The position numbers and the translations under genes were made by a program. A model generated the notes under the pieces. The model searched no databases. It had not been told where the DNA came from and worked only from the letters and a program-made list of their open reading frames with translations. Shown here one piece after another: positions 28,315 through 30,369 of a DNA stretch of 64,000 nt. Location: positions 779,001 to 843,000 of the forward strand of contig NZ_CP033433.1 of assembly GCF_003713065.1 (NCBI RefSeq). Direction: 5' to 3'. Source of the DNA: Cohnella candidum (GTDB taxonomy: Bacteria > Bacillota > Bacilli > Paenibacillales > Paenibacillaceae). How positions within the stretch are numbered: the stretch's first letter is position 1; the number at the start of each line of letters is the position of its first letter.

Positions 28315-28350
28315 GAACCCCCTGATCCACGAGGATCAGGGGGTTCTTCG
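28315..28350. terminator. Bidirectional terminator between convergent genes
   Basis: GAACCCCCTGATCC and its exact complement form a 14-bp stem with an ACGA loop, 60 bp after the plus-strand gene and 16 bp from the end of the minus-strand oxidoreductase. U-rich flanks are weak on the minus side. Confidence 0.8.
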
Positions 28351-28365
28351 TTCGTATATGGCAGC

Positions 28366-29682
28366 TTACCGTACCGCGACCGGCAACTCTTGCAGCACCA
28401 GCTGCGCAACCGCGCGGGCGCTGGAGAATGCGCGCTCGGCGAGCTCGCCTTTGCCGACGCAGCCGTCTCCGCAGAAGTAGAAGGGCACGCTTTCGATGCG
28501 GTTCGGCAGCAGCCGGTTGCCGGCGACGTTTTTGACGCTTTGGACCATCGCTTTTTTGCTCATGCGCTTCACGGCGACGGCATCGCGCCAGCCGGGGTAA
28601 TGGCGGTCGAACAGTGCTTCCATCTGCGCCTGCCGTTCATCGAGGTACGCTTTGCGGTCCGTTTCCCCGTCGAACGTCTCGTCGGACAGGTACGCGACGC
28701 CCTGAAGCAGCTGCCCGCCTTCCGCCACGAGCGTGTGGTCCGTCGCGGAAACGTCGGTGATAAACATTTTGTTGTTCATGTCGCTGATGTACGAGAAAGG
28801 ACGGTTCACGACCCGGCTCAAGCCGACGTCGTACACGAGCACTTCCGTCGCAGTGTTGGATTCGTAAGGCGCCATGAACGGCTCCCAAGGCGTTCCCTTG
28901 AGCAGCTTGACGACCTGCTGCGAGGGCATCGCGAAAACGACTTTGTCGAACGCGAGCTCGCGGTTTTTCGTCGTGATCCAGTACTTGCCGTTCTCGTAGC
29001 GGATCGAATCGACGCCTTCCTGCTGCGCCAGCTCCCAGCGGGACGACGCTTCGATTTTATCCTTCAGCTGGCCCGTGATGACCGCCCAGCTTCCCAGGAT
29101 GTAATTGACGGGCTTCTGCGACAGGAACAGGTTATGATAGTAGTCCGCGATGACATGGCCGGGCACGCGCCGCGCATCCTCTGGAGAGATGAAGAAGTTG
29201 GAGCAAACGAGGTGCTCCCACAGCTCTTTCAAGTCCTCGCCTTCGTTTGACTCCGCCAAATAGTCGCCGAGCGTCGGGTATTTGCGAAGCTGGTGGATGT
29301 TCGCGATCATGGCGGCGATCTCCGCGGCGAAACGCACCTTCTGGCCGGCGGAAATGACGTCCGTCTTCATCAGGTTGATGAAGTCCAACGGCGCGGGGGT
29401 CAGATGGTCTCCCTTTTCGTACATGACTTTGCGTTTGTCGACCTGGCGGCTCGAGAATTGGAGGTCCAGCTCTTTCTCCAGCTTGCCGATCGTATGGCGG
29501 TCGATGCCGTAGACCGCATGCGCGCCATAGTTCAGCGTGAATCCGGCTTTCTCGTAAGTAAATGCCCGTCCGCCCCATTGCGGACTCCGTTCGAAAATCA
29601 CGCCCCGGATGTCCGGGGAACGGCTCAAATAAGCGGCGGCCGTCAGTCCGGCCAAACCTCCGCCGATTACGGCGATCTCCAT
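28366..29682 (-). CDS. FAD-dependent oxidoreductase, phytoene desaturase/amine oxidase type
   Basis: Flavoprotein oxidoreductase of unknown substrate. The domain starts MEIAVIGGGLAGLTAAAYLS, a classical GxGxxG FAD-binding fold, followed by SPQWGGRAFTYEKAG and a C-terminal FAD motif FYFCGDGCVGKGELAERA. From the ATG at 29682 it has 438 residues, the usual length for the group. AAGGAGGAA lies 6-8 bases upstream, so this ATG is a good start by itself. The upstream tetR frame is continuous with it: no stop codon separates them (see the separate entry and finding), so both a fusion and a separate protein can be made. Confidence 0.85.
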   Translation of the reverse strand: MEIAVIGGGLAGLTAAAYLSRSPDIRGVIFERSPQWGGRAFTYEKAGFTLNYGAHAVYGIDRHTIGKLEKELDLQFSSRQVDKRKVMYEKGDHLTPAPLDFINLMKTDVISAGQKVRFAAEIAAMIANIHQLRKYPTLGDYLAESNEGEDLKELWEHLVCSNFFISPEDARRVPGHVIADYYHNLFLSQKPVNYILGSWAVITGQLKDKIEASSRWELAQQEGVDSIRYENGKYWITTKNRELAFDKVVFAMPSQQVVKLLKGTPWEPFMAPYESNTATEVLVYDVGLSRVVNRPFSYISDMNNKMFITDVSATDHTLVAEGGQLLQGVAYLSDETFDGETDRKAYLDERQAQMEALFDRHYPGWRDAVAVKRMSKKAMVQSVKNVAGNRLLPNRIESVPFYFCGDGCVGKGELAERAFSSARAVAQLVLQELPVAVR

Positions 29683-30288
29683 GTTCGGTTCCTCCTTGAG
29701 CACGGATCCGGTCCCGGCGGGGGAACTTCCGCCGACTTCCGCCAATCCGCGCCATGCCCACATCAAATTGTCCCGCAGCGACCGCTCCAGATCGGAGCCG
29801 GCGCCCGCGGCCCATGTCCATAACGTGCCGGTAAACAAATCGTATAAGTAAGTGGCTTTGCGCCGGTCGGAAAGCCATTCCGTCAGGCAGTCTGCCAATT
29901 GCGCCGCCCATTCCGCCTGCGCCGCGGCAAGCTGGGGCTCTTCCTTGCTCAAAAAGTAGACGCTGCGGACGAGGAGCGGAACCTCCCGAAGGGCGTGCGC
30001 CAATTCCAGCAGCAGGCTGTTGACGCGCCCTTCGGGCGAAACGCCTCCGGAAAGCCCGCGTTCCTTCCATTGCCGGATAATCTCGCATTGCCGCCGGGGC
30101 AGCTCGCATAGAAGCTCTTCTTTGCTCCGGAAATAATGATAGAACGTCCCTTTCGACGTCCCGGTCGCTTCGATAATGTCGCCGACCGACACTTGGTCGT
30201 AGCCGCGTTCGGCGAAAAGCCGCAAAGCCGTTTCGACTACCAGCGCTCTTTTGCGATGTGTAGCCGCTCTCAAACCGGGGATTTTCAC
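29683..30288 (-). CDS. TetR-family regulator, in frame with the oxidoreductase
   Basis: A 202-codon TetR-type transcription regulator. The DNA-binding helix-turn-helix is RALVVETALRLFAERGYDQV, then SVGDIIEATGTSKGTFYHYF, followed by an all-helical ligand/dimer domain (about 60-190) ending near NLMWAWRGLAEV. The start is taken as the GTG at 30288, with GGGAGGAG about 10 bases upstream; an ATG at 30315 is an alternative. The frame has no stop and continues through a short Gly/Ser linker (GGSSPAGTGSVLKEEPN) straight into the next gene. A perfect inverted repeat 58 bp upstream is a likely operator. Confidence 0.8.
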
Positions 30289-30346
30289 GCCGACCACGCT
30301 CCTCCCGTTTGCCATTATACGTCGAGCCGGCAAGGAAAACCAGAGA

Positions 30347-30369
30347 AAAATAGACCGCCAGTCTATTTT
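30347..30369. promoter_or_regulatory. Inverted-repeat operator candidate for the TetR-type gene
   Basis: AAAATAGAC and GTCTATTTT form a perfect 9-bp inverted repeat with a 5-bp spacer (CGCCA). The TAGAC-N5-GTCTA core has the form of known TetR-family operators. It lies 58 bp upstream of the TetR GTG start, in the region shared with the HIT gene, so it fits autoregulation. No clear -35/-10 pair was identified beside it. Confidence 0.7.

Follow-up and report, generated by a model that had tools for sequence, protein, structure and literature searches.

The 64,000-nucleotide stretch analysed as a whole (the window, G000:C1:779001-843000; the genome is one contig of 5.29 Mb) carries a gene in which a TetR-family regulator and an FAD-dependent oxidoreductase are encoded in one frame. 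Comparison with related loci makes it probable that this is a self-contained, self-regulating enzyme gene, which would give both a regulator–enzyme fusion and the free enzyme. The features on which the following sections draw are these:

28366–30288, minus strand: fused TetR/FAD-oxidoreductase frame, 640 aa from GTG 30288, with orthologous fusions in 101 loci
29683–30288, minus strand: TetR-family part with C-terminal linker (PF00440, E 2.2e-18; nine-helix model; invariant helix-turn-helix residues)
29683–29742, minus strand: variable 20-aa linker, frame 0 (88 distinct peptides; dN/dS 0.50)
29689–29697, minus strand: internal Shine-Dalgarno (SD) AAGGAGGAA, codons K-E-E, with a mean match above that of all 500 synonymous recodings (101 loci)
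29680–29682, minus strand: internal ATG, putative start codon for the free enzyme, ATG in 99/101 loci
28366–29682, minus strand: FAD-dependent oxidoreductase, flavin amine oxidase fold, 438 aa (Pfam)
28315–28346, minus strand: hairpin resembling an intrinsic terminator directly 3' of the fused gene, with a 14-bp stem and a T-rich tail
30299–30306, minus strand: SD GGGAGGAG for the GTG 30288 start, 10-nt gap (read from the sequence)
30314–30319, minus strand: −10 box TATAAT, with a weak −35-like TGGTTT at 30337–30342 and a 17-bp spacer (read from the sequence)
30350–30366, minus strand: palindromic putative operator ATAGACTGGCGGTCTAT, the sole genome match to WTAGACYNNNRGTCTAW; TAGACN5GTCTA in 98/101 fused loci

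The fused gene and its two protein parts

Translation of the window gave a single stop-free frame on the minus strand, which extends from a point before 30315 as far as the stop at 28366; the earlier note on this DNA, which had reported the fusion, had given no strand. The TetR end ...GSVLKEEPN joins MEIAVIGGG directly, with no stop between the two as that note had claimed, and the same join was found in 101 orthologous loci. A missing base or other assembly indel in this genome is ruled out because the identical frame join recurs in these 101 loci, and on this comparative ground the fused frame was confirmed to be real and not an assembly artefact. Pfam detected TetR_N (E 2.2e-18) and Amino_oxidase (E 1.7e-18, profile 1-443 of 443) within one protein.

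The fusion likely starts at GTG 30288, which is preferred because the alternative ATG upstream of it, at 30315, shares bases with the TATAAT box. The codon aligned with it in four Cohnella relatives is TTG, TTG, GTG and ATG. The terminator-like hairpin lies right at the 3' side of the gene (a terminator scan of the region gave 8 such sites vs 3.7 expected), and the upstream neighbour is a divergent gene which we take to be of the HIT family. This arrangement suggests that the fused gene is probably monocistronic.

The TetR part comprises about 200 aa, the 20-aa linker included. It scored 66.2 bits against PF00440 (TetR_N helix-turn-helix), the cut-off of which is 24, and its helix-turn-helix (HTH) residues are invariant across 43 aligned fusions. 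Its dN/dS is 0.13. The structure model places nine helices over residues 8-183 (block pLDDT 73-94 for residues 11-180), and the predicted all-helical C-terminal dimer/ligand domain of the TetR family is present in it. In the fold search with the fusion, the match lists were filled by the enzyme part.

The enzyme part belongs to the flavin amine oxidase superfamily, as it covers the PF01593 profile from 1 to 443 of 443 and also matches PF13450 (FAD Rossmann). The motifs GGGLAGL and GGRAFT are invariant in 43 aligned sequences, and a dN/dS of about 0.05 indicates strong constraint. Large portions of the enzyme are poorly modelled (mean pLDDT 68). Its scores are below the curated cut-off for all 25 NCBIfam models listed, of the 32 matched; it reached 68.2 for the HpnE model (283.05 needed), 49.2 for protoporphyrinogen oxidase (TIGR00562; 97.85) and 30.4 for the CrtI family (238.1). 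Elsewhere in the same genome (G000:C1, about 4129000-4131500), a distant paralog of the enzyme (23% identity) lies near a separate TetR gene and is a possible unfused counterpart.

Putative internal start and linker

The earlier note had also pointed to a Shine-Dalgarno site just before the junction ATG, and this reading held: AAGGAGGAA lies at 29697-29689 with the ATG 6 nt on, so that the junction reads AAGGAGGAA-CCGAAC-ATG. Of the 101 orthologous loci, 99 have ATG as the junction codon; L084 has TTG and L011 has ATT. The mean longest match of the internal SD to the anti-Shine-Dalgarno complement was 6.43, in comparison with 4.52 in synonymous recodings, none of the 500 of which was as high. 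For 56 linker clusters, the corresponding values were 6.39 and 4.62, again with 0/500 as high. A match of at least 6 was found at 82 of the 101 junctions vs only 17 of the 1477 other in-frame ATGs of these genes. The codons that encode the internal SD differ across the loci (KEE, KGE, KGD, KEG, REE). Their pS of 0.12 on 42 sites is below the 0.31 of the linker, but it derives from only 5 changes, and their dN/dS interval is wide (0.13-1.36). From this comparison, the internal start signals look to be under selection. The best-guess starts of TetR in the 101 loci are ATG in 55, TTG in 29 and GTG in 17; their SD match is 4-5 in 64/101, while that of the internal starts is 6-7 in 68/101.

The locus L011 (G040) has no SD and no ATG, GTG or TTG at the junction, and its enzyme frame is full-length. 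ATT is a rare start codon. With both the SD and the ATG missing, the enzyme is probably made there only as the fusion, and a lone enzyme appears improbable.

The linkers are 7-32 aa long (20 aa in 78/100) and form 88 distinct peptides, as determined at the 100 loci where the TetR end motif was found; no conserved protease site was seen among them. No linker could be delimited in L061, and this locus was counted as having no stop in the shifted-frame tally of 101 linkers. Read in frame +1, 53 of the 101 linkers contain a stop, and the same number do so in frame +2; the zero stops in frame 0 follow from the way in which fused loci were defined. TetR adjoins the enzyme in 102 orthologous loci and is in frame with it in 101 of them, L260 being the sole exception. 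The linker dN/dS in frame 0 was 0.50 (bootstrap 0.36-0.67; 33 independent close pairs). Changes at the three codon positions numbered 80, 71 and 114 of 429 each, the third position being the most variable, and the shifted frames gave a pS of 0.17 and a pN of 0.19-0.20. By these substitution estimates, the linker is under weak purifying selection while it is hypervariable and in frame. A fusion, an enzyme alone or both had been proposed as products of the locus, and the comparative evidence from the SD, the ATG and the linker favours both.

Distribution, origin and putative operator of the fusion

The first set examined comprised 60 genomes, the window's own and 59 relatives. Of the 59 relatives, 11 have an ortholog of the enzyme at 65% identity or more, which is fused to TetR in 9 and stands alone in 2. 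The gene is patchy: only 4 of 36 other same-genus genomes have the ortholog (86-92% identity), and all 4 genes are fused. Wider searches, each with the own genome included, gave enzyme matches in 69/394 genomes of the family (E 1e-60), 139/392 of the order and 109/398 of the class (E 1e-50). Most but not all of the family and order hits, together with 80 of 95 relatives, provided 161 distinct enzyme genes, and a locus was taken as fused if at least 150 in-frame codons preceded the enzyme. An in-frame TetR was found in 103 of these 161 genes, 101 orthologous ones and two of a second lineage (L013, L014). The fusion thus persists in relatives, a check which had been suggested with the original observation. 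The alternative that relatives generally have two genes divided by a stop was rejected, because 57 of the 58 non-fused loci have no TetR HTH motif within 1300 nt upstream and no genuine tblastn match to TetR; this search recognises TetRs like those in the set, and one too divergent would escape it. The upstream frames of 13 non-fused loci likewise contained no recognisable TetR. Several apparent TetR matches at non-fused loci proved to be an artefact, as a portion of the L001 query is antisense to the HIT gene.

The remaining locus, L260 (Paenibacillus sp. P25), was rejected as a case of broken TetR. Its 222-aa TetR frame looks intact, is out of frame with the enzyme, runs on beyond the enzyme ATG and ends 77 nt into the enzyme gene; the operator and the internal SD-ATG are kept. 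It represents either a sequencing error or a real overlapping pair and, if real, separate products would work there. Long open frames in G571, G723, G842 and G582 were rejected as further fusions since their upstream part is not TetR-like. Two enzyme genes, L183 (G177) and L184 (G090), are broken into two frames in the assemblies. G470 has two enzyme copies (L170 and L171), one fused to TetR and the other alone beside an unrelated gene. No plasmid copies covering 80% of the fusion were found.

In a tree of 159 rows, 103 of them fused (L183 and L184 left out, L260 scored as non-fused), lone genes nest among the fused ones. The tree requires at least 9 state changes, 5 of which are forced by well-supported branches. 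In the stretches examined, the divergent HIT gene lies upstream of 18 of 56 non-fused genes (L260 included) and of 61 of 101 fused genes. The sharing of this neighbour by lone genes fits repeated loss of TetR in place, the direction of change being read from the pattern. In the second lineage (G039, G047, G537), a different TetR is fused to the enzyme, also with no stop and with an SD-ATG. This TetR has 21-28% identity to that of the first group over long alignments, or short matches only, and the enzyme is about 34-37% identical to that of the first group. A single origin of the fusion was rejected because, in the tree with class-level relatives, the genes of G039, G047 and G537 are placed among lone enzymes and away from the first group. 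A lone enzyme with 68% identity is present in a family member of G537. The p-AU of 1e-85 for both fusion groups as one clade overstates the case since lone genes also nest inside the first fusion group, and the placement is the better evidence. By this phylogenetic comparison, such TetR–enzyme fusions arose at least twice.

The palindrome TAGACYNNNRGTCTA lies 5' of 98 of the 101 fused loci and often forms the −35 box. The pattern TAGACN5GTCTA occurs in these 98 loci vs only one of 58 non-fused ones, and that one is L260, which has a TetR; a control palindrome of the same bases occurred 0 times in the loci searched. Near copies with one mismatch are present at L199 and L240, L006 has no copies closer than three mismatches, and the pattern is absent from L013 and L014. 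Two operator copies were found in 7 fused loci (L095, L136, L201, L203, L205, L209, L236); tandem operators, 23-24 bp apart, are at the two positions which are found singly elsewhere. WTAGACYNNNRGTCTAW matches one place in each of the genomes G000, G007, G013 and G018, and this is always the gene in question. It is absent from both lone-enzyme genomes searched, and G030, the operator of which differs in a flanking W, has zero matches. The backward control pattern matched two sites in G018 and none in the other six genomes, which means that the single match in G018 is not by itself beyond chance. With the strict pattern WTAGACYNNNRGTCTAW, no regulon beyond the own gene was found in the window's genome. 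The conserved palindrome is the candidate site to which the TetR part would bind.

A TATAAT match of at least 5/6 lies within 55 nt of the operator in 98/98 operator loci, vs a mean of 41/98 and a maximum of 54 after shuffling. The TATAAT-like box starts 8 nt past the operator in 67/98 loci and 31 nt past it in 20/98. For 71 of 105 operators, the first hexamer is exactly 17 bp before the box, which is the −35 position, so that bound TetR would cover the −35. Among the other gaps between hexamer and box, 5 is the commonest (58; at this gap there is overlap with the right arm of the operator itself), and a gap of 10 was seen in 17. In Cohnella loci, the window included, the operator is 23 bp further upstream (the 31-nt arrangement), and the sign of regulation could differ there for this reason. 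Repression is plausible for the arrangement in the window, activation being the alternative sign.

Proposed mechanism and relation to known systems

In the mechanism which we propose, the promoter of the gene would have a palindromic operator of its own. Translation from GTG 30288 would yield the 640-aa TetR–enzyme fusion, and translation from the internal SD-ATG the free 438-aa enzyme. The fusion would dimerise through TetR, occupy the operator and regulate little or nothing besides its own gene, most likely by repression until the substrate, the product or the flavin state of the enzyme releases TetR. Both enzyme forms would then accumulate until the ligand is consumed. We infer that the gene yields both proteins, that the TetR part binds the palindrome, that the regulation is negative and that the ligand stems from what the enzyme itself catalyses. 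A tentative and rather doubtful extension would have the catalytic domain itself sense substrate or flavin state and thereby move the covalently attached TetR onto or off the single operator, while free enzyme mixing with the fusion sets the repressor:enzyme ratio; a single gene would then form a metabolic feedback circuit, of an architecture that arose at least two times.

It is unlikely that the fusion is the only product and the internal SD-ATG a relic of a once separate enzyme gene. Lone enzyme genes have a similar SD and ATG, so the signals could be ancestral, and L011 has lost both and yet keeps a full-length enzyme frame. Mere relics do not fit an SD that is kept through the different codons listed above in hypervariable linkers, with a mean match beating 500/500 synonymous recodings, or an ATG kept in 99/101 loci. 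A role of the FAD domain mainly as the sensor of a redox- or flavin-sensing repressor, with catalysis secondary, would agree with its being tied to TetR in 101/102 orthologous loci that have one. This is very improbable, however, as the enzyme stands alone in 57/161 genes and in nearly all class-level relatives fetched. Many genomes retain the enzyme without TetR, and this lone occurrence, together with the strong constraint, fits a metabolic enzyme.

We consider least probable of all that the fusion is unselected, TetR being simply without a stop, its tail neutral and the free enzyme doing the work of a conventional pair of genes. The strong internal start, the weaker-looking TetR start signals and the retention of TetR, operator and enzyme by the out-of-frame L260 would be in agreement with it. 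But stops or frameshifts should be frequent in a neutral tail, and such a change was seen in 1/102 loci, while 53/101 linkers have stops in each shifted frame. The linker dN/dS is below 1, and L011 is apparently able to make the fusion only.

If the self-regulating gene with two products is the correct reading, the internal start would set the regulator:enzyme ratio. A private operator and a probably monocistronic gene make a compact system for testing direct control by a substrate of the transcription of its own enzyme gene, and the system offers a route to the substrate of the enzyme.

No published description of this fusion gene was found in searches of open-access papers, which is weak evidence of absence since most subscription papers lie outside them. 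TetR-family repressors with self-operators are known as a class, and TetR proteins are normally free. The fusion resembles these repressors in the HTH, the size, the helical core and the palindrome near the promoter; it differs from them in that, save for cleavage or truncation and with the exception of L260, there would be no TetR without the enzyme. From the flavin amine oxidase superfamily members protoporphyrinogen oxidase, carotenoid desaturase and HpnE, the enzyme part differs by falling below the curated NCBIfam cut-offs.

PutA is a frequent illustration of enzymes that repress their own gene. Trifunctional PutA is a flavoenzyme with an N-terminal DNA-binding domain which acts as an autogenous transcriptional repressor (PMC5293562). 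The fusion shares with it a flavoenzyme and an N-terminal DNA-binding domain, and its proposed autogenous repression would resemble that of PutA (for PutA, PMC5293562; PMC6978683). PutA combines a ribbon-helix-helix (RHH) domain with proline and P5C dehydrogenase domains, whereas TetR is combined here with an enzyme of the amine oxidase fold; no RHH or PRODH/P5CDH domain is among the 7 Pfam matches of the fusion. The present gene also differs in having an internal start for the enzyme alone and an operator seen at its own gene only. In cas8/Cas11, one frame gives a long protein and, from an internal start, its C-terminal part, the short form demonstrated being a small Cascade subunit (PMC11899642). 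Here, in contrast, the short form would be a complete enzyme free of the regulator. The fusion gene is a member of neither PutA nor cas8/Cas11. If the proposed mechanism is correct, it would represent a second architecture with PutA-like logic, built of unrelated parts, namely a member of the very large TetR family and an enzyme of the amine oxidase fold.
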